Positions 53,548 through 64,000 of a stretch of DNA of 64,000 bases are shown here, piece by piece; position 1 is the stretch's first letter, and each line of letters starts with the position of its first letter. The position numbers and the translations under genes were made by a program. The stretch is from Streptomyces sp. YPW6 (GTDB lineage Bacteria > Actinomycetota > Actinomycetes > Streptomycetales > Streptomycetaceae), in NCBI RefSeq assembly GCF_018866325.1, contig NZ_CP076457.1, positions 2,329,001 to 2,393,000 of the forward strand. The letters run 5' to 3'. The notes under the pieces are model-generated. The model searched no databases. It was not told the DNA's origin and saw nothing but the letters and a program-made list of their open reading frames with translations.

Positions 53548-54384
53548 TCAGGCGTCCCTGCGGCGCAGCAGCACCGCGGCGACGGCCAGCAGCGCGGCGG
53601 TCCACAGGGCGAAGACCCCGATTCCCTGCCAGGGCCCCAGCACGTCGCCGGCGCGTGCCTGCTGCTGAGTCATCATGAAGCCGGCCTGGGTGGGCAGGTA
53701 GGCGAAGACGTACGTGCCGATCTTGCCGGGCAGCAGCGCCGCCATCGGCGTGAGCACCAGGACGAATCCGATGACACCGGTGATGCTCGCGGCCGTGTGC
53801 CGGATGATCGCGCCGACGGCGAGGGCGAACAGACCGAGCAGGGCCAGGTAGAGGCCGGTGCCCGCGACGGCCCGCAGGACGCCCGGGTCGCCGAGCGCGA
53901 CCGGCGCCTTCTCCTCCAGGAGCGGCGCGCCGATGAGGAACGAGCCGAACGCGGTCACCTCGCCGACGACGAGGACCAGGAGGCCGAAGACGGCGGTCTT
54001 GGCCGCGAGGACCGGGACGCGCTTCGGGACGGCGAGCAGGCTGGCGCGGATCATGCCCGTGGAGTACTCCGAGGCGATGACCATCACCCCGAGCACGCAG
54101 ACCGCGAGCTGGCTGAGCAGGATGCCGCTGCCCAGGATCGTGCCGGTGGGGTCGAGTCGCATCTCGGCCTGCTGGGCCGGCTCGGTCTTGTCCCAGTTCG
54201 CGACCCCCATCTGCATGAAGAGCGCGGTGAAGATCAGGGACACCACGACCAGGATGGCCAGCGACCAGACCGTCGAGCGCACCGAGCGGATCTTCGTCCA
54301 CTCCGAGAGCATCAGCTGTCCGAAGCCCGGCCTGTGCCCTGTGCCGGCGGCGGCGGTCGAGGCGGGGGTGGTCAGGGTGGTCAC
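53548..54384 (-). CDS. ABC-2 type exporter permease (DrrB-like)
   Basis: A 278-residue membrane protein with six hydrophobic segments, beginning with a hydrophilic N-terminus and MLSEWTKIRSVRSTVWSL before the first span. ASEYSTGMIRASL after the second or third span is typical of ABC-2 permeases. Its GTG start overlaps the ATPase stop as GTGA. With the ATPase it should form a two-component exporter, plausibly for the cluster product, as DrrAB exports daunorubicin. Confidence 0.88.
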   Translation of the reverse strand: MTTLTTPASTAAAGTGHRPGFGQLMLSEWTKIRSVRSTVWSLAILVVVSLIFTALFMQMGVANWDKTEPAQQAEMRLDPTGTILGSGILLSQLAVCVLGVMVIASEYSTGMIRASLLAVPKRVPVLAAKTAVFGLLVLVVGEVTAFGSFLIGAPLLEEKAPVALGDPGVLRAVAGTGLYLALLGLFALAVGAIIRHTAASITGVIGFVLVLTPMAALLPGKIGTYVFAYLPTQAGFMMTQQQARAGDVLGPWQGIGVFALWTAALLAVAAVLLRRRDA

Positions 54385-55304
54385 TTCGCGCCTCCGGTGG
54401 CGGGCACGACGGCGTCGTACTCGACGGCGTCCTTGGTCAGTTCCATGAAGGCGTCCTCCAGCGAGCCACGGCTGGTCGAGAGTTCGTGGAGGACCAGGCC
54501 GTCGGCAACGGCGAGTTCGGCGATGCGGGGGGCTTCGAGACCGACGACGTTCAGGTCGCCCCCGACCTCGACGACGGTGGCGCCCTCCGCCTTGAGCAGT
54601 GCGGAGAGCTTCTCCCGGTCGGGGGTCTTCACCAGGACGGACTGCTCGGTGCTGCGCTCGATGAACTCCTCCGTGGAGCAGTCGGCGACCAGCTGACCGC
54701 GGCCGATGACGATGAGGTGGTCGGCGGTGACGGCCATCTCGTTCATGAGGTGGCTGGAGACGAAGACGGCACAGCCCTCGGCCGCCAGCGACTTCATCAG
54801 GCCGCGGATCCAGAGGATGCCCTCCGGGTCCAGACCGTTGACCGGCTCGTCCAGGAGCAGTGCGGACGGGTTGCCGAGCAGCGCGGCGGCGATGCCGAGC
54901 CGCTGGCCCATACCGAGGGAGAAGCCGCCCGCGCGCTTGCGCGCCACCGACCCCAGGCCGACCTGCTCGATGACCTCCTCCACCCGGCGCCTGCTGAGGC
55001 CCTGGGTCTGCGCGAGGCAGAGCAGGTGGTCGTAGGCGCTGCGGCCGGTGTGCACGGCGCGCGCCTCCAGGAGTGCGCCGACCACCCGCATCGGCTGCGC
55101 GAGGTCGCGGTAGGCCACGCCGTTGATGGTGGCCTCACCCGAGTCGGGCCGGTCCAGGCCGAGGAGTAGCCGCATCGTGGTGGACTTGCCCGCGCCGTTG
55201 GGGCCCAGGAAGCCGGTGACGCGCCCGGGCTCGACCCTGAACGACAAGTCGTTCACGGCGATCTTGTCGCCGTAGCGTTTCGTGATGTTCTTGGCCTCGA
55301 TCAT
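54381..55304 (-). CDS. ABC exporter ATPase (DrrA-like)
   Basis: A 307-residue ATP-binding protein. Walker A is GPNGAGKST, the signature is FSLGMGQRLG, Walker B is ALLLDEPVNGLDPEG and the switch His is SSHLMNE. The C-terminal about 80 residues form the extension common in drug-exporter ATPases. ATG 55304 is used because MIEAKNITKRYG is the standard N-terminus; the frame runs on upstream without support. It is co-translated with the permease. Confidence 0.92.
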   Translation of the reverse strand: MIEAKNITKRYGDKIAVNDLSFRVEPGRVTGFLGPNGAGKSTTMRLLLGLDRPDSGEATINGVAYRDLAQPMRVVGALLEARAVHTGRSAYDHLLCLAQTQGLSRRRVEEVIEQVGLGSVARKRAGGFSLGMGQRLGIAAALLGNPSALLLDEPVNGLDPEGILWIRGLMKSLAAEGCAVFVSSHLMNEMAVTADHLIVIGRGQLVADCSTEEFIERSTEQSVLVKTPDREKLSALLKAEGATVVEVGGDLNVVGLEAPRIAELAVADGLVLHELSTSRGSLEDAFMELTKDAVEYDAVVPATGGAK

Positions 55305-55533
55305 GGTCACCTCAGGTGAAGGGGCTGCGAGAGGAATCGGGAGACAACAAGATCCCGACCCTGTGTTACCAGGAACGGCATTCCGTTCAGTAGTGGTGAG
55401 CCCCGGTCCGGGGTTGAACACGGCGCTCGGATTCACGCTCGTGGATATTTTCTGACGACAGGCCCGCCCCTGCGGACGTCTGTTTCGTCTGCTTCTTTTC
55501 CTCAGTTGAACCCGAAAACCCCGAAGGGTGGTC
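55305..55533. promoter_or_regulatory. divergent promoter region, exporter / C26-like gene
   Basis: A gap of about 230 bases with lower GC near 55440-55510 (GATATTTTCTGACG, TTCGTCTGCTTCTTTTCC). A 13-base palindrome TCACCTCAGGTGA (55308-55320) overlaps the exporter ribosome site. GTTGAAC and CAGTTGAAC segments recall halves of StrR-type sites (GTTCGACTG...CAGTCGAAC), but the match is partial. Confidence 0.4.
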
Positions 55534-56307
55534 ATGAATTCAACTCGGAACGGCCCGGCGGAGACGCCCCGGCGTCCCGTCATCGGGATCGTCGCGCGGA
55601 CCTCGCCGGTCACACTCCACGGCTCCGACCTGGTCGTCAGCCTCGCACTCCAGGCTCATGTCGCCTACCTCGCCGAAGCGGGCTGCGCCCCGGTGCTCCT
55701 GCCGCAGCTGCCCGGCGTCGAGCGGCTCGTCGACCGGGTCGACGGCCTGCTCGTCCCGGGCGGGCCGGACATCGACCCGGCGCTGTACGGTGAGGCCGCG
55801 CACCCGGTCACCCGGGCCATGACCCCGGATGCCGACCGGGTCGAACTGGCCCTGCTCAGGGCGGCACTCGACGCCGGGCTGCCCGTCCTGGGCATCTGCC
55901 GCGGCATGCAACTCCTCAACGTGCTGCACGGAGGCTCGCTCCATCAGCATCTTCCGGACGTCACCGGTCACGACGGTCACCGGCCGGGCACGTCGTCCTT
56001 CACGCTCGGGCGCCACCCGCTCAGGCTCATGGCCGGCAGCCGTATCGCCGGCGTCCTCGACGAGGACGCGCCGGAGTCGGCCTGCCACCACCACCAGGCG
56101 GTGGGGCGGCTCGGTGACGGTCTCACCGTCACCGCGTGGGCGGCGGACGGGACCGTCGAGGCGGTCGAGCTGACGCATCACCCCTTCGCCGTCGGGGTGC
56201 AATGGGAAGCCGGATACACGGCCGACCGGCGGCTGCACCACGCATTCGCCGAAGCCGCCGGTGCCGCGCAGAAATTCGGCGTGCCGTCGGGAATTTCACG
56301 TACTTGA
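55534..56307 (+). CDS. C26-type (gamma-glutamyl-GABA hydrolase-like) protein lacking the catalytic His-Glu pair
   Basis: A 257-residue class I glutamine-amidotransferase fold. LLVPGGPDIDPALYGE and the nucleophile elbow LGICRGMQLLNV (Cys122) match PuuD-type gamma-glutamyl hydrolases. The usual C-terminal GVQWHPE, which supplies catalytic His and Glu, is here GVQWEAG (Trp224, Glu225, Ala226, Gly227), so both residues are missing. It may be inactive, use other histidines (HHHQAV earlier), or have a changed reaction. ATG 55534 follows AAGGGTGG. The CMD-like gene follows 57 bases downstream in the same direction. Confidence 0.82.
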   Translation: MNSTRNGPAETPRRPVIGIVARTSPVTLHGSDLVVSLALQAHVAYLAEAGCAPVLLPQLPGVERLVDRVDGLLVPGGPDIDPALYGEAAHPVTRAMTPDADRVELALLRAALDAGLPVLGICRGMQLLNVLHGGSLHQHLPDVTGHDGHRPGTSSFTLGRHPLRLMAGSRIAGVLDEDAPESACHHHQAVGRLGDGLTVTAWAADGTVEAVELTHHPFAVGVQWEAGYTADRRLHHAFAEAAGAAQKFGVPSGISRT

Positions 56308-57025: not shown

Positions 57026-58408
57026 TCAGAACGCCTTCGTGCTCGCGGTGGTGAGGACCGCGAGCAGCGTGCGCGCCTGTACGTTGACGTAACGGCTGTG
57101 TCCGGCGAGCCAGTTGAGCTGGCCCGGGGTCACCCAGTGGAAGCCGGGCGGCGCCTCGGCCGGCGTCGTCGCCTCGTCGGTCTCGACGAGCAGATAGCGG
57201 CTCTCGGCGTTGAGGAACCGGCCGCCCTCCTCCGAGTGGACCGTGGCGTAGCGGATCCGTTCGGGCGCGGCGTCCAGGATCACGTCGAGGAACGGCGGGC
57301 GCTGCCCGGCCGGCAGGTGCGCGTAGTTCGACGGCACGCACTGCACGGTCGGCGCGAGCTCCACGGCGTCGAGGAATCCGCCCTCCACGCGCGCGTGCGC
57401 GAGGACGTGCGGGACGCCGTCGAACACGCGGCACGCGAAGGCGACCAGGCCGGGACCGACCGGCTCGATGATCGGCTGGGTCCAGCCGCGGACCTCGCGG
57501 CCCGCGCCCTCCACGGAGACCGCCACGACCCGGAAGAACCGGTCGTCCTCGCGGTGGATGGAGTGGGTCGTCCGCCGCCAGCCGGATATCTCGCGCAGCG
57601 CCGTACGGCGGGCGCGGACGTCCTGGCGGGCCCGCTCGCCGGTGAACCAGGTGAGCAGCCCGCCGTCGGAGGACAGCGCGCCGTCCTCCTGCGGTGCCAT
57701 GGGGGCACTCGCGAGGACGGTCCGCGCGTCCATGTTCACCACGTTGTCCAGGGCGAGCAGCTCCACGATCTGGCCGAGCGTCAGCCAGGCGAAGTCGTCG
57801 TGGACGGGTACGGAGGTACCGGCGTCGACCTCGACGATCATGTTCCGGTTGCGCTTCCGGTAGAACCAGGCGCCGTGCTCGGACTGGAGGACGTCGGTGA
57901 GGACCCGGTCCCGGTCGGGCTCCAGGAAGTGCTCCAGGTACTTCACGGCCGCGCCGCCGTGGGCCTTGGTGTAGTTGCTGCGCGTGGCCTGCACGGTGGG
58001 CGAGAGCTGCACCAGATGGGGGTTGCCGGGCTCCATCTTGGCCTGCATGAGGAAGTGGAGGACCCCGTCGAACTCCTGGGCCAGGATGCCGAGGATGCCG
58101 ATCTCCGGCTGGACGATGATCGGCTGCTGCCATGAGCCGTCGGGCCGGTCGACGCGCAGGCCCTCGATGGTGAAGAACGCTCCGCTGCTGTGGCGCAGGT
58201 TGCCGGTGTCCGGCGCGAAGGACCAGTTGTCGAGCCCGGCGAAGGGGATCCTCCGGATCTCGGTGCCGCAGGTGACCCGGTGGAAGTCGAGCCACTCCAG
58301 GATCTCGGCGGTCGTGCGGTGGGCGCCCCGCGTCGTCGCGGCCGAGCGGGCGAGACGCTCGGTGGTCCCGGCACGCGAGCGCGGGACGAGGCGGGTCCGG
58401 GGACTCAT
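57026..58408 (-). CDS. NDP-hexose 2,3-dehydratase
   Basis: A 460-residue enzyme with two homologous halves: FHRVTCGTEIRRIPFAGLDNWSF, then a first FDGVLHFLMQAKMEPGNPHLVQLSPTVQATRSNY unit and a second FDGVPHVLAHARVEGGFLDAVELAPTVQCVPSNY unit, each given here as short motifs of the family (QAK.EPGN, SPTVQ.T.SNY). It removes water from the NDP-4-keto-6-deoxyhexose to start 2-deoxygenation, as TylX3, OleV and UrdS do. ATG 58408 overlaps the stop of the 4,6-dehydratase gene as ATGA. This pair makes a 2,6-dideoxysugar precursor for product glycosylation. Confidence 0.93.
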   Translation of the reverse strand: MSPRTRLVPRSRAGTTERLARSAATTRGAHRTTAEILEWLDFHRVTCGTEIRRIPFAGLDNWSFAPDTGNLRHSSGAFFTIEGLRVDRPDGSWQQPIIVQPEIGILGILAQEFDGVLHFLMQAKMEPGNPHLVQLSPTVQATRSNYTKAHGGAAVKYLEHFLEPDRDRVLTDVLQSEHGAWFYRKRNRNMIVEVDAGTSVPVHDDFAWLTLGQIVELLALDNVVNMDARTVLASAPMAPQEDGALSSDGGLLTWFTGERARQDVRARRTALREISGWRRTTHSIHREDDRFFRVVAVSVEGAGREVRGWTQPIIEPVGPGLVAFACRVFDGVPHVLAHARVEGGFLDAVELAPTVQCVPSNYAHLPAGQRPPFLDVILDAAPERIRYATVHSEEGGRFLNAESRYLLVETDEATTPAEAPPGFHWVTPGQLNWLAGHSRYVNVQARTLLAVLTTASTKAF

Positions 58409-59385
58409 GCCCGGCCCCCGCTCTCCTTGACCGGCTTCCACCATCGCGGGTTGTCCCGGTACCAGGCGACGGTCTCGGCGAGGCCGCGGTCGAAGGAGGT
58501 GAGGGGCCGGTGGCCGAGCTCCTTCTCGATCTTGGACTGGTCGAGGGCGTAGCGGCGGTCGTGTCCCTTGCGGTCGGTGACATGGTCGATCATGTCGACG
58601 TCCACCCCGCAGAGTTCGACGATCCGGTGGGCGAGCGTCAGGTTCGGCACGGCTGAGCCGGAGCCTATGTTGTACGCCTCGCCGGCCCGGCCGCCGGTCA
58701 GGACGCGCTGCACGGCACGGCAGTGGTCGTCGACGTGGAGCCACTCGCGGATCTGCTGTCCGTCCCCGTACACGGGGATGCGACGGCCTTCGAGAAGGTT
58801 GGTGACCGCGAGCGGGATGAACTTCTCGGGGTGCTGGTACGGCCCGTAGTTGTTGGAGCAGCGGGTGACCGAGACGTTCAGCCGGTGAGTGCGGAAGTAG
58901 GCGAGCGCGATGAGGTCGGAGGAGGCCTTGGAGGCCGCGTACGGGGAGTTGGCGAGGAGCGGGGACTCCTCGGTCCAGAAACCCTCGTCGATGGAACCGT
59001 ACACCTCGTCCGTGGAGATGTGCACGACCCGCCCGACGCCGACCGCGAGGGCTGCCTCCATGACGGCCTGGGTGCCCTCCACGTTGGTGCGGACGAACGC
59101 GGCACCGCTCTCGATGGACCGGTCGACGTGACTCTCGGCCGCGAAGTGAACCACCGCGTCCTGGCCTTCGAGCACGCTGTGGAGCAGGGCGCGGTCGAGG
59201 ATGTCGCCCCGGACGAAGGTGAGCCGCGGGTGCGCGGCGGGGAGGTTCTCCCGGTTGCCGGCGTAGGTGAGTGCGTCGAGGACGGTGATGTGCGCGTCCT
59301 CGTATCCCGGGTATCCCCCGTCGAGCATGGTCCGTACATAGTGGGAGCCGATGAATCCGGCGCCGCCGGTGACGAGGATTCTCAT
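58405..59385 (-). CDS. rfbB: dTDP-glucose 4,6-dehydratase
   Basis: A 326-residue extended SDR enzyme. The NAD site is GGAGFIG (7-13), the catalytic region STDEVYG has Thr125, Asp126 and Glu127, and the Tyr149-x-x-x-Lys153 pair is in YAASK. NNYGPYQHPEKFIPL and GDGQQIREWLHVDDH complete the family pattern. It converts dTDP-glucose to dTDP-4-keto-6-deoxyglucose. It overlaps the 2,3-dehydratase start. No glucose-1-phosphate thymidylyltransferase is in the window. Confidence 0.95.
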   Translation of the reverse strand: MRILVTGGAGFIGSHYVRTMLDGGYPGYEDAHITVLDALTYAGNRENLPAAHPRLTFVRGDILDRALLHSVLEGQDAVVHFAAESHVDRSIESGAAFVRTNVEGTQAVMEAALAVGVGRVVHISTDEVYGSIDEGFWTEESPLLANSPYAASKASSDLIALAYFRTHRLNVSVTRCSNNYGPYQHPEKFIPLAVTNLLEGRRIPVYGDGQQIREWLHVDDHCRAVQRVLTGGRAGEAYNIGSGSAVPNLTLAHRIVELCGVDVDMIDHVTDRKGHDRRYALDQSKIEKELGHRPLTSFDRGLAETVAWYRDNPRWWKPVKESGGRA

Positions 59386-59476
59386 GAGATCACGTCGCAG
59401 TCGGAGTTCCACGTTCGAGACATGTTCCTGTGCCCTTTGCGGTGAGGAGATGGGGTGCCGTGCGATGGGGCGTCTT

Positions 59477-61864
59477 TCAGATGGCTGGTTCGAGGAGTGA
59501 ACGGCCGACGTAGGCCGCCAGGTGTTCACCGGTGCGTGTGGCGCGGCCGGCGATCAGCTCGGCCGGGGTGCCTTCGAAGACGATCCGGCCGCCGTCCTGG
59601 CCGGCGCCGGGGCCGACGTCGACGATCCAGTCGGCGTGTGCCATCACGGCCTGGTGGTGCTCGACGACGATGACGGACCTTCCCGCGTCCACGAGCCGGT
59701 CGAAGAGCCGGAGCAGCCGTTCCACGTCGGCGAGGTGGAGTCCGGAGGTCGGCTCGTCCAGGACGATCACCCCGCCCTTCTCGCCCAGGTGCGTGGCGAG
59801 TTTCAGCCGCTGGCGCTCACCGCCGGAGAGGGTGGTGAGCGGCCGGCCGAGGGAGAGGTGGTCGAGGCCGACGTCGGAGAGGCGCCGCAGGACGCGGTGG
59901 GCGGCGGGGACGCGGGTGTCGCCCGCGCCGAAGAACTCCAGGGCCTCGTGGACCGGCATCGCGAGCACCTCGCTGATGTCGAGGCCGCCGAAGAGGTACT
60001 CCAGGACGGAGTTGTCGAAGCGCCTCCCCTCGCAGTCCTCGCAGGTGGTGGCGGCCTGGGCCATCATCGCGAGGTCGGTGTGGAGGACGCCGGCACCGTT
60101 GCAGGTGGGGCAGGCGCCCTCGGAGTTGGCGCTGAAGAGCCCCGGCCGCACGCCGTTGGCCTTCGCGAAGGCCGTACGGATCGGGTCGAGGAGGCCGGTG
60201 TACGTGGCGGGGTTGCTGCGCCGGGAGCCCTTGATCGGCGACTGGTCGACGGCCACCACGCCGTCCCGGCGTGCCACCGAACCGTGGACGAGGGAGCTCT
60301 TGCCGGATCCGGCGACGCCGGTGACGACGCAGAGCACGCCGAGCGGAAGGTCGACGTCGACGTCCTGGAGGTTGTGTGTGGCGGCGCCGCGGATCTCCAG
60401 GTACCCCGTGGGCTCGCGTACGGTCGCCTTCGGACCGATCCGTTGGCCGAGGCAGCGGCCGGTCGGGGTGCCGCTCGCGCGCAGTCCGTCGAGGGTGCCC
60501 TCGTACAGCACCCGGCCGCCGTCGGCGCCGGCGCCCGGACCGAGGTCGACGACGTGGTCGGCGAGGGCGATGGCCTCCGGCTTGTGCTCGACGACGAGGA
60601 CGGTGTTGCCCTTGTCGCGCAGCCGGAGCAGCAGTTCGTTCATGCCGGCGATGTCGTGCGGGTGGAGGCCGGTGGTCGGCTCGTCGAAGACGTACGTGGT
60701 GTCGGTGAGCGCGGAGCCGAGGTGACGGATCATCTTGACGCGCTGGCCCTCGCCGCCGGACAGGGTGCCGACGGGCCGCTCCAGGGAGAGGTAGCCGAGT
60801 CCGATCTCCACGATCGACTCCAGTGTGTGGAGCAGGGAGGCGAGCAGCGGCGTGACCGAGGGGTCGTCGAGACCGCGCACCCAGGTGGCGAGGTCCCTGA
60901 TCTCCATCGCGCAGGCGTCGGCCATCGAGATCCCGTGGATCTTCGAGGACCTGGCCTCGGCGGAGAGCCGGGTGCCCGCGCAGTCGGGGCAGGTGGTGAA
61001 GGCGACGGCCCGGTCGACGAAGGCCCGGATGTGCGGTTGGAGCGACTCCCGGTCCTTGGACAGCATCGACTTCCGGAGCTTCGGAAGGAGGCCCTCGTAG
61101 GTGAGGTTGACCCCGTCGACCTTCACCTTGCGGGGCTCGCCGTGGAGGAACTCGCGCATCTCCCGTTCGGAGAAGTCGCGGATGGGCTTGCGCGGGTCGA
61201 GGACGCCGGACTCGGCGTAGACGCGGGTGGTCCAGAAGCTTTCCTGCCGCCAGCCGGGGATGGTGAACGCCCCGTCGCCGATGGCGCGCGTGTCGTCGTA
61301 CAGCTGGGCGAGATCGATGTCGGAGACGGTGCCGCGGCCTTCGCAGCGGGGGCACATTCCGCCGTGGTAGACGGCCTTGCGGACGACGATCCGCTTGCCG
61401 CCGGCCTTGTCGACGTTCATGGCGCCGCTCGCCGTGCGGCGCGGGACGTTGAAGGCGAAGGCGCTGGGCGGGCCGACGTGGGGGGTGCCGAGCCGGCTGA
61501 AGAGCACGCGCAGCATGGCGTTGGCGTCGGTGACCGTGCCGACGGTGGAACGGGGGTCGGAGCCCAGGCGCCGCTGGTCGACGACGATCGCGGTGGTCAG
61601 ACCTTCGAGGAGGTCGACGTCGGGGCGGGGAAGCGTCGGCATGAAGCCCTGGACGAAGGCGCTGTACGTCTCGTCGACCAGTCGCCGTGACTCGGCGGCG
61701 ATCGTGCCGAACACCAGGGAGCTCTTGCCGGATCCGGAGACGCCGGTGAAGACCGTCAGCCGGTGCTTGGGGATCTCGACGTCGACGTCCTTGAGGTTGT
61801 TGACGCGCGCGCCGTGCACCCGGATCCGGTCGTGACGGTGGACGGAGGCGGATTCCTGGCTCAT
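59477..61864 (-). CDS. UvrA-like ABC protein (DrrC type), probable drug self-resistance
   Basis: A 795-residue two-ATPase protein, shorter than UvrA (about 940-1000 residues). Walker A sites are GVSGSGKSS (41-49) and GVAGSGKSS (about 515); signatures are TLSGGEGQR (about 366) and TLSGGERQR (about 678). Zinc-ribbon remnants are CPRCEGRG and CPDCAG in the first half and CPTCNG...CEDCEGRRF in the second. The missing length is consistent with loss of the UvrB-binding region seen in DrrC-like proteins, which protect against DNA-binding drugs. ATG 61864 (MSQESASVHRH) is chosen over longer forms. It lies upstream of the deoxysugar pair. Confidence 0.87.
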   Translation of the reverse strand: MSQESASVHRHDRIRVHGARVNNLKDVDVEIPKHRLTVFTGVSGSGKSSLVFGTIAAESRRLVDETYSAFVQGFMPTLPRPDVDLLEGLTTAIVVDQRRLGSDPRSTVGTVTDANAMLRVLFSRLGTPHVGPPSAFAFNVPRRTASGAMNVDKAGGKRIVVRKAVYHGGMCPRCEGRGTVSDIDLAQLYDDTRAIGDGAFTIPGWRQESFWTTRVYAESGVLDPRKPIRDFSEREMREFLHGEPRKVKVDGVNLTYEGLLPKLRKSMLSKDRESLQPHIRAFVDRAVAFTTCPDCAGTRLSAEARSSKIHGISMADACAMEIRDLATWVRGLDDPSVTPLLASLLHTLESIVEIGLGYLSLERPVGTLSGGEGQRVKMIRHLGSALTDTTYVFDEPTTGLHPHDIAGMNELLLRLRDKGNTVLVVEHKPEAIALADHVVDLGPGAGADGGRVLYEGTLDGLRASGTPTGRCLGQRIGPKATVREPTGYLEIRGAATHNLQDVDVDLPLGVLCVVTGVAGSGKSSLVHGSVARRDGVVAVDQSPIKGSRRSNPATYTGLLDPIRTAFAKANGVRPGLFSANSEGACPTCNGAGVLHTDLAMMAQAATTCEDCEGRRFDNSVLEYLFGGLDISEVLAMPVHEALEFFGAGDTRVPAAHRVLRRLSDVGLDHLSLGRPLTTLSGGERQRLKLATHLGEKGGVIVLDEPTSGLHLADVERLLRLFDRLVDAGRSVIVVEHHQAVMAHADWIVDVGPGAGQDGGRIVFEGTPAELIAGRATRTGEHLAAYVGRSLLEPAI

Positions 61865-61953
61865 GGGTCTCCCTGGCTGAGGACCGGGCCGTGGTCGCCC
61901 GGCCCGTCCGGAGAGGGTGCCGTGACGGGCTCGGCGGCCGCTCGCAAACGGCT

Positions 61954-61989
61954 TGAGCCCCGCTCGGGAAAACATCCGAGTGGGGCTCA
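61954..61989. terminator. hairpin between VOC and UvrA-like genes
   Basis: TGAGCCCCGCTCGG pairs with CCGAGTGGGGCTCA around an 8-base loop, one pair being G-U. It lies about 90 bases before the UvrA-like gene start and could end the VOC transcript or attenuate read-through. Confidence 0.75.
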
Positions 61990-62079
61990 CGTGGGATTCG
62001 AGTCGGCCGCGAGAGGGACACGAGGAGGCCGGGAGCCGGAATCGCGAAGGTTTTGCGAAGAATCGAGAAGCTTTTCGCC

Positions 62080-62442
62080 TCAGTTGTCCTGAAGAAGTCC
62101 GAGAACGTTGCCGTCGATGTCCGTGACGGTCGCGACAAGGCGCCCGCCGCCGACGTCGGCGACCGGGTTCTGGACGGCGGCACCCGCCGCGGTCACCTCG
62201 GCGAGCTTCTCCTCGATGTCCGGCACGTGCCAGTACGCGACCGGTGCGGACATGCCCTGGGTACCGGCGCCCGGCACCAGACCGATGTGCTGACCTGCGA
62301 TGTCGTAGCCGACGTAGAAGTCGGAGACGGTCTGCGGTTCGGTGCCGAGCAGGGCGGTGTACACCCCCCGCGCCACCGCGAGGTCCTTGACGGGATGCAG
62401 GACGGTCTTGATCGCCTGCACGGAAGATTCGGCCGTGCTCAT
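62080..62442 (-). CDS. VOC-family small protein, possible drug-binding or resistance protein
   Basis: A 120-residue single VOC unit pair: IKTVLHPVKDLAVARGVYTALLGTEP, PVAYWHVPDIEEKLAEV and LVATVTDIDGNVLGLLQ. His near the start and the late Asp/Asn region fit the fold, but the metal ligands are not certain. ATG 62442 follows AGGAG. It is the first leftward gene opposite the S33-like gene, 160 bases away, and upstream of the UvrA-like gene. Similar proteins bind bleomycin or mitomycin; a sequestering role is an inference from context. Confidence 0.85.
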   Translation of the reverse strand: MSTAESSVQAIKTVLHPVKDLAVARGVYTALLGTEPQTVSDFYVGYDIAGQHIGLVPGAGTQGMSAPVAYWHVPDIEEKLAEVTAAGAAVQNPVADVGGGRLVATVTDIDGNVLGLLQDN

Positions 62443-62602
62443 TCGGTTACTCCTGGGGTCGGGATCTCCTCCTCGCATGTTAATTAGAGCGCCGACGCGG
62501 CGCTTCTCTGATAGTGCCCTGATGGGATTCCAGCCGCCGTTGACCGGAAATGGAGGTTCGGTTGTCAGGCTGCGAGCGCGCTGTATTCAGAAGGGGAATC
62601 AC
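62443..62602. promoter_or_regulatory. divergent promoter region, VOC / secreted hydrolase
   Basis: A 160-base gap of relatively low GC (GCATGTTAATTAGAGCG near 62477). It should hold both promoters. An AGAAGGGGA ribosome site precedes GTG 62603. No clear operator is seen. Confidence 0.45.
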
Positions 62603-64000
62603 GTGAAGAAGCTCGCATTGGTCACCACGGTGATCGTGACCGGTCTGGTGAGCCCGGTCCTCACTCCGGTCGCGGCGGCTCAGACCGCCGTCACGCAGAA
62701 CGCCGGCACCCTCGCATGGGCTCCGTGCACGGAGAACGACCCGGTACTCGGCCCCATGCTCAAGGGCCTCGACTGCGGCACGCTCGAGGTGCCGCTCGAC
62801 TACGACGATCCCTCGGGACAGAAGATCAAGCTCGCGCTGACCCGTGCCAAGCACACGGTCGCCGAGGCCGATTACCAGGGCGTCGTCATCCTCAACCGCG
62901 GCCAGTGGCCCGGAGGCATCGGCCGTGACCTTCCCACGCGTTACGCGAAGGGCACCACCGGTCTCGCCTCCGACGTCGGCAGCGCCTACGACTGGATCGG
63001 TTTCGACCCGCGCGGTGTGGGCGCCAGCGAGCCGGCCGTCGTCTGCGACCCCTCTTACATCAACCCGGGCCAAGCCCAGCCGGACCCGGTGCCGACCTCC
63101 TCGGCCGCCGAGCAGGCATGGGCGAACCGCGCCAAGGCGTACGCCGAGAGCTGCGGCCAGCAGTACGGCGACGTGCTCAAGCACCTGACCACCAAGGACG
63201 CGGCGCGCGACCTGGACCGGATGCGCATCGCTCTCGGCCAGGAGAAGATCACCTTCTTCGGCACCGACTGGGGCACCTACCTCGGCTCGGTCTACGCCAC
63301 CCTGTACCCGAACCGGGTCAAGCGGCTGCTCCTGGACAGCGTCGCCAACCCGACCGGTGTCGGATTCCTGAACCAGTTCAGCAAGAACTTCACGTCGGAG
63401 CAGAACGCCGACCTGTTCTTCGCCTGGGTCGCCAAGTACGACAGCGTCTACCATCTGGGCACGACCGCCGCACAGGTCGAAGCCAAGTACTACGAGGGCC
63501 AGGACAAGCTCCGCGCCGCGCCCGTCGACGGCGAGATAGGCCCGGCCGAGTGGGCCGATGTCTTCGAGCCGGTCGTCTACCGGCACTGGATCTGGATGAA
63601 CCGCGCGAAGATCCTCTCCGACTTCGTCGTCGACGACGACCCGACGTCGCTGAAGGCGAACTACTCGGACCCGGGCTTCCCGCACCAGAACCGCCACACC
63701 ATGACCAACGCGGTCAACTGCACCGACGGCCCCTGGCCGAAGGGCTGGACCTCCTACAGCATGGCCTACGCGTCGCAGTACGCCCTCGGCGTCAAGTTCC
63801 TCACCTGGACCAACGCCTGGTACACCGCGCCCTGCGCCTTCTGGCCGGTGCCGTCCAAGACGCCCGTCCAGGTCGGTAACAGCAACGTGGAAGTCCTCAT
63901 CGTCCAGCCGCAGTTCGACGCCGCGCACGGCCTCATCGGCGCCTACCAGACGCGCGCGCTGTTCCCGAACTCCCGGCTCATCCTGGAGAAGGGCGGCCAC
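62603..64000 (+). CDS. secreted S33-family alpha/beta-hydrolase with aspartate in place of the nucleophile serine; truncated by window edge
   Basis: The first 466 codons are visible; the stop lies beyond the window. A signal peptide (residues 1-28, ending near PVAAA) precedes the tripeptidyl-aminopeptidase-like fold: WAPC, LDCGTLEVPLDYDDPSG, and DWIGFDPRGVGASEP, the usual oxyanion region. The nucleophile elbow normally reads GxSxG; here it is FFGTDWGTYLG with Asp222. The later acid (VQPQFDAAH) and the His (GGH, the last visible codon) appear kept. Asp nucleophiles in GxDWG elbows are the rule in epoxide hydrolases and haloalkane dehalogenases. It may open a reactive epoxide of the cluster product outside the cell, or be a non-catalytic binder. 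Confidence 0.85.
   Translation, partial: MKKLALVTTVIVTGLVSPVLTPVAAAQTAVTQNAGTLAWAPCTENDPVLGPMLKGLDCGTLEVPLDYDDPSGQKIKLALTRAKHTVAEADYQGVVILNRGQWPGGIGRDLPTRYAKGTTGLASDVGSAYDWIGFDPRGVGASEPAVVCDPSYINPGQAQPDPVPTSSAAEQAWANRAKAYAESCGQQYGDVLKHLTTKDAARDLDRMRIALGQEKITFFGTDWGTYLGSVYATLYPNRVKRLLLDSVANPTGVGFLNQFSKNFTSEQNADLFFAWVAKYDSVYHLGTTAAQVEAKYYEGQDKLRAAPVDGEIGPAEWADVFEPVVYRHWIWMNRAKILSDFVVDDDPTSLKANYSDPGFPHQNRHTMTNAVNCTDGPWPKGWTSYSMAYASQYALGVKFLTWTNAWYTAPCAFWPVPSKTPVQVGNSNVEVLIVQPQFDAAHGLIGAYQTRALFPNSRLILEKGGH

Follow-up and report, generated by a model that had tools for sequence, protein, structure and literature searches.

An exported S33-fold protein with aspartate at its nucleophile elbow, encoded near a probable kinamycin/lomaiviticin-like polyketide gene cluster in Streptomyces sp. 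YPW6

At the 3′ end of the window analysed here, a stretch of 64,000 nucleotides from the genome of Streptomyces sp. YPW6, lies a plus-strand gene that starts with GTG at 62603, is preceded by AAGGGG and stays open to the window end. Positions 62603-64000 hold codons 1-466 of 514, and the gene ends at 64147 in the extended genome coordinates. The product, hereafter the D222 protein, begins with a Sec-type signal peptide (VKKLALVTTVIVTGLVSPVLTPVAAAQ; 62603-62683, plus strand), recognised on sequence reading by its hydrophobic core and AxA site. Conservation of a V/MKKLA start among the orthologues supports this beginning, and the eight cysteines, together with the Sec-type N-terminus, fit export. 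Pfam assigns Abhydrolase_1 with 56.7 bits (cut-off 25.8) and the C-terminal, TAP-like Abhydrolase_4 with 31.5 bits (cut-off 21). These two matches, along with the structural match to Hip1 given below, place the protein in the S33/TAP fold. The sequence and a structural model of an orthologue thus predict an exported alpha/beta hydrolase fold of S33/TAP type, in agreement with the exported S33 ancestry assigned by a first-pass annotation of this DNA. A dN/dS of 0.35-0.46, a rough measure given such GC-rich genes, fits purifying selection.

The divergent neighbour encodes a VOC/glyoxalase-fold protein (62080-62478, minus strand), adjacent in 14 of the 17 complete contexts, that is, those with enough upstream sequence for adjacency to be counted. 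Next come genes for a UvrA-like drug-resistance protein (59477-61990, minus), a dTDP-glucose 4,6-dehydratase (58405-59529, minus; TIGR01181 at 424 bits, above cut-off) and an NDP-hexose 2,3-dehydratase (57026-58744, minus; PF03559), whose true start is probably inside the frame. Further upstream, synteny marks an ABC exporter pair (53548-55613, minus), which is composed of an ATPase (54381-55613, minus; matches to drrA and similar models, none reaching its cut-off) and a permease (53548-54384, minus; by sequence reading). The UvrA-like and deoxysugar genes had initially been taken as meaningful context, but their variable synteny weakens them as functional partners: UvrA is adjacent in 7 of the 17 contexts, and no UvrA, VOC or sugar gene was found within 10 kb of the S33 gene in the orthologous loci L043 and L058; the sugar genes are absent from a subclade that keeps the protein. 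Moreover, UvrA-like genes occur in 16/16 genomes tested, and their presence alone therefore tells little. A class-I glutamine-amidotransferase/C26-like gene (window 55528-56307, plus; by sequence reading) stays beside the S33 gene even where the sugar, UvrA and VOC genes are missing (L043, L044, L046, L058).

Beyond the window, in the 3′ direction, there are genes for a glycosyltransferase, an MFS exporter, ATP-grasp, PhyH, SUMF1-like and asparagine-synthase-like proteins, several FAD oxygenases and an OMT-like protein. Further 3′ come a glutamine synthetase, an amidase, an adenylosuccinate-lyase-like protein, a GNAT N-acetyltransferase and a type II ketosynthase pair, the gene set of kin/lom/fls-type clusters. 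This hydrazino cassette and ketosynthase pair lie about 32-52 kb downstream (genome 2427011-2445344, L111; extended window coordinates 98011-116344), and the four nitrogen genes match the set given for fosfazinomycin and kinamycin (PMC6133997). A ferredoxin frame with two CxxCxxC-type motifs precedes a long gene lacking a Pfam match, and the two are candidates for a pair like the KinI ferredoxin and the KinJ heme enzyme (PMC12154649). Additionally, an alpha/beta hydrolase gene at genome 2452019-2452816 (L112:6019-6816, minus) encodes Ser92, Glu115 and His241, the residues mutated in FlsH, under the same numbers; judged by these residues, its product is FlsH/Lom6-like and separate from the D222 protein. 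The nitrogen cassette, the ketosynthase pair and this hydrolase point to a benzofluorene-type N-N polyketide, and the surrounding type II polyketide cluster probably makes a reactive kinamycin/lomaiviticin-like N-N compound. Two side observations concern the composition of the cluster. The block of ATP-grasp, PhyH, HEAT-SUMF1-like and asparagine-synthase-like genes (L009:6734-14987) is conserved, but in some orthologous clusters it is missing or swapped for distant SUMF1-like genes, and an Rv2466c-like, mycothiol-dependent nitroreductase is encoded inside the cluster (L010:7927-8544, minus).

The nucleophile elbow of the D222 protein reads G220-T-D222-W223-G224 (63260-63274, plus strand), with GAC as codon 222 (63266) inside GGC-ACC-GAC-TGG-GGC. 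The Ser of the GxSxG motif of active S33 peptidases is therefore absent, and Asp222 stands in its place. In an AlphaFold model made on a 92%-identical orthologue (L033; 52 aligned sequences; pLDDT 90.3, pTM 0.89), residue 222 follows strand 216-221 and precedes helix 224-234, which puts it at the elbow, where the first-pass annotation had located it. Asp followed by Trp at the elbow is a motif of epoxide hydrolases and haloalkane dehalogenases, and by position, both in alignment and in the model, the elbow Asp of these enzymes is found in the D222 protein. Orthologues at E < 1e-120 were detected in seven of 393 other same-genus genomes and all seven carry Asp, while Ser occupies the site in 7/7 other S33 proteins of the YPW6 genome. 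As independent genomes agree, a sequencing or frame error behind Asp222 was ruled out.

A scan of named genomes provided 78 relatives, and a tree of 46 relatives was built by a quick method, with SH-aLRT support only and with the elbow column kept in. Ordinary members combine NPGGPG or NRGGPG with GxSxG, DxxTP and a later NHG-type His. The remainder, including the D222 protein, have RGQWPG with a one-residue insertion (62897-62914, plus strand) instead of the GGPG oxyanion-loop motif typical of active S33 peptidases, and this subfamily forms a single clade with support 100. One of its branches (support 91) carries Ser or Gly at the elbow and includes Salinispora, S. uncialis, Kineosporia, Rhodococcus rhodnii and Actinomadura bangladeshensis. 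The other is a single clade of 23 with 22 Asp and one Glu (support 87), and the outgroup has Ser. The Glu (GTEWG) belongs to the Thermomonospora catenispora orthologue (L048:10001-11509), whose cluster is rearranged but conserved; Gly is found in the A. bangladeshensis relative, and the R. rhodnii protein (L060:10001-11536), whose gene shares its contig with a hydrazino cluster, has Gly for the nucleophile and Gln for the His. Parsimony requires four changes at this site over the 46 sequences. With Asp in all seven orthologues and a single Asp/Glu clade, the substitution of Ser by Asp is real, old and beyond chance.

Other active-site positions have changed as well. It had been noted that the Asp and His of the triad seemed present later in the protein, and this holds for the acid: the loop D439-A-A-H442-G443 (63917-63931, plus strand) retains D439, the S33 acid, with H442 in place of a conserved Thr (the Hip1 Thr466 column) and G443 in place of Pro. 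The His depends on the comparison used. With close S33 relatives and TnmK1 as the reference, the column of the catalytic His holds Val468, whose codon lies beyond the window, whereas alignment to Hip1 His490 gives His466, two residues earlier and encoded by the last codon of the window (63998-64000, plus), so that the first-pass annotation had an incomplete protein before it. Thus, in one alignment, D222, D439, H442 and H466 occupy the Hip1 columns Ser228, Asp463, Thr466 and His490, and this register stands beside the first assumption, that the His was simply lost. In the L033 model H466 lies three residues past strand 458-463, although this His is not conserved in Actinoallomurus.

Comparison of 20 inner-clade sequences with the Ser/Gly relatives and the outgroup revealed ten positions that are fixed differently (122, 222, 223, 324, 329, 334, 364, 442, 443 and 468). 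Half of them are catalytic positions (D222, W223, H442, G443 and V468), where, besides the nucleophile, the Tyr that follows it has become Trp, the Thr of DxxTP has become His and the old His column has become Val. These five fall in the elbow, acid and His loops, which make up 20 of 469 positions; the chance of this if changes were random is about 2e-5, a guide only, as the loops were picked knowing the fold and the sites are non-independent. Such a concentration in three catalytic loops suggests targeted change and not decay. The four earliest-branching Asp members depart from this pattern: in L056 and L059 the acid is gone and the old His is kept, while the Actinoallomurus proteins L049 and L050 share H442 and V468 with the inner clade yet carry Asp at position 466.

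Searches of the PDB with Foldseek returned TnmK1, TnmK2 and Hip1 at the top, with TM values of about 0.75-0.86 (TnmK1, 8e18/8e19: E 1e-30, TM 0.78/0.86; Hip1: TM 0.76/0.84). Epoxide hydrolases rank later, at a TMq of about 0.31-0.33 against 0.78 for TnmK1, and no epoxide hydrolase or haloalkane dehalogenase family profile in Pfam or NCBIfam matches the D222 protein. Judging by this ranking of modelled structures, the fold is S33 and not that of an epoxide hydrolase, and the likeness to epoxide hydrolases is restricted to the elbow. That the GxDWG Asp defines an epoxide hydrolase here is not supported, given the poor fold match, the presence of Ser, Gly, Asp or Glu across close relatives and a base His that has moved or been lost.

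The nearest solved folds, TnmK1 and TnmK2 (PDB 8e18/8e19 and 8g5t/8g5u), are S33/TAP-like proteins encoded among the biosynthetic genes for a reactive aromatic antibiotic; they are 27 and 24% identical to the D222 protein, respectively, and, like the RGQWPG subfamily, do not conserve the GGPG oxyanion motif in alignments. TnmK2 is a cofactorless oxygenase. An S33 fold without GGPG inside an aromatic polyketide/enediyne cluster is a trait that the D222 protein shares with both, but their clusters are enediyne clusters and not hydrazino/type II polyketide ones, and they keep the Ser, Asp and His triad columns where the D222 protein has Asp222 and Val468. Both are assigned to the core enzyme set that makes tiancimycin (PMC9464397). 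Hip1/CaeA (Rv2224c) and other S33 tripeptidyl aminopeptidases have the same fold, domain order and export, the same acid Asp and a His (His490 of Hip1) in register with His466; they differ in GGPG (RGQWPG here) and, in Hip1 numbering, at Ser228 (Asp) and Thr466 (His442). The epoxide hydrolases and haloalkane dehalogenases, including Alp1U of kinamycin biosynthesis, are of a related superfamily, share the elbow Asp and Trp and, for Alp1U, come from a related pathway class, and differ in cap and in overall fold; moreover, the D222 site tolerates Glu. FlsH and Lom6, from the fluostatin and lomaiviticin pathways, are also alpha/beta hydrolases of hydrazino-type polyketide clusters, but they are of Ser92/Glu115/His241 type, about 260 aa long and devoid of the TAP architecture. 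The D222 protein as Lom6/FlsH or Alp1U was ruled out, FlsH being such a short hydrolase and the genome having a separate gene of that kind.

Across genomes, the D222 protein tends to occur together with the hydrazino cassette. A KinK-like amidase is encoded in five of the eight genus genomes that have the protein versus 10 of the 386 that do not (Fisher 2e-6, with relatedness uncorrected). Ten cassette genomes of the genus are without the S33 protein, which therefore accompanies only some clusters of this kind. Among the RGQWPG-type genomes tested, 13/14 have the amidase, the exception being L043, of the IDWG subclade, and 14/14, L043 included, have a KinJ-like gene; of two NRGGPG-type genomes tested, one (L061) has both genes and the other neither. 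Hence the link of the RGQWPG-type protein to the cassette is not strict, because L043 lacks the amidase and the outgroup L061 has it. The distance between amidase and S33 gene is at most about 20 kb in Salinispora, S. uncialis, Kineosporia and A. bangladeshensis and 24-35 kb in R. rhodnii and Thermomonospora, while in Actinoallomurus the Asp-type gene and the cassette are on different contigs. The setting that recurs around the protein is thus a hydrazino cassette within a type II polyketide cluster, and the UvrA and sugar genes to which the first-pass annotation had pointed are not constant partners.

As a whole, the evidence speaks for an active site that was rebuilt in a targeted way and has not decayed, and for a role tied to the cluster compound. 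The reading that we tentatively prefer, while giving it somewhat less than even confidence, is that the D222 protein is a repurposed S33 fold and not a peptidase, which would act on the polyketide outside the cell as an acid/base or orienting group, without a covalent Asp. An exported S33/TAP protein would have been recruited to an aromatic polyketide instead of peptides, following the precedent of TnmK1 and TnmK2 in the tiancimycin pathway, and its partner compound is probably what the surrounding type II cluster with its hydrazino cassette makes. The oxyanion loop would have changed first, in the ancestor shared by all RGQWPG proteins; Ser would later have given way to Asp and, once, to Glu; and the catalytic apparatus would then have been rebuilt in the inner clade (W223, H442, H466, V468) with most other parts unchanged. 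The carboxylate at 222 and the new His residues could thus serve as the acid/base or substrate-orienting group in a tailoring or detoxifying step beyond the membrane. The retention of a carboxylate in Thermomonospora counts for such tailoring, and the nearby cassette and ketosynthase pair and the amidase association count for a polyketide-linked role. By contrast, the separate contig in Actinoallomurus counts against it, as do the conserved pocket changes, which would be equally expected of a binding protein.

It is indeed possible, although we doubt it more, that catalysis has been lost and that the exported protein sequesters or carries the polyketide in its old active site. Close relatives have Ser, Gly, Asp or Glu in the nucleophile column, and loss of the nucleophile is evidently tolerated, as the Gly proteins of R. 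rhodnii (also Gln for His) and A. bangladeshensis are still encoded on hydrazino-cluster contigs. GID1, a receptor of the same fold, likewise has Val where the base His would stand, and the adjoining VOC-fold neighbours belong to a fold that includes antibiotic-binding proteins. However, the new ionisable residues D222, H442 and H466 fixed in the inner clade go beyond the needs of a hydrophobic pocket, and D439 is retained.

A covalent route, as originally proposed for extracellular detoxification, seems unlikely. Asp222 would attack an electrophilic carbon of the polyketide, such as that of an A-ring epoxide, to form an ester, and His466 or His442 would, with Asp439, activate water, so that the compound is detoxified outside the cell. 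The elbow Asp-Trp pair, the retained D439, H466 in the His490 register and the fixation of H442 would suit this chemistry, and the idea of an epoxide-bearing compound finds support in relatives of the cluster: the kinamycin and lomaiviticin pathways pass through an A-ring epoxide, which the alpha/beta hydrolases Alp1U and Lom6 open (PMC4506494). Nevertheless, the FlsH/Lom6-like hydrolase (S92, E115, H241) is already in the cluster, the fold is distant from epoxide hydrolases, the Glu of L048 is no usual nucleophile in an alpha/beta hydrolase fold, and the deepest Asp members deviate (no acid and the old His in L056/L059, Asp at 466 in Actinoallomurus). Additionally, with four residues alternating at the site and one relative without either nucleophile or His, a covalent Asp nucleophile is only tentative. 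We regard as more improbable still the fuller scenario in which, inside one close family, a secreted serine peptidase fold was converted by natural steps (the oxyanion loop altered, Ser replaced by Asp and the His moved) into a covalent-Asp, epoxide-hydrolase-like enzyme for disarming a diazo/epoxide polyketide outside the producer, with living intermediates of each step. An ordinary exported peptidase or esterase that draws its nucleophile from another residue would agree with the S33 fold, the TAP C-terminal domain and the 36-41% identity to full-length Ser paralogues of the same genome, but it is very improbable, as the nucleophile Ser, the oxyanion motif GGPG and the customary His column have all changed.

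In the open-access papers searched, no description was found of this variant S33 protein from natural-product clusters. If the protein is confirmed as an enzyme, the family would provide a natural and fairly recent series from Ser to carboxylate sites on the S33 fold, whose Ser, Gly, Asp and Glu members, about 50-70% identical, can be compared side by side. Confirmation would also put a name to an unassigned exported component of kinamycin/lomaiviticin-type clusters, for which self-protection and the final steps are only partly understood. As for the wider relatives, Actinomadura and its kin carry two to five S33 paralogues in tandem (L061, L062, L063, L065, L067, L068, L070, L085), and those that were aligned have ordinary Ser sites.
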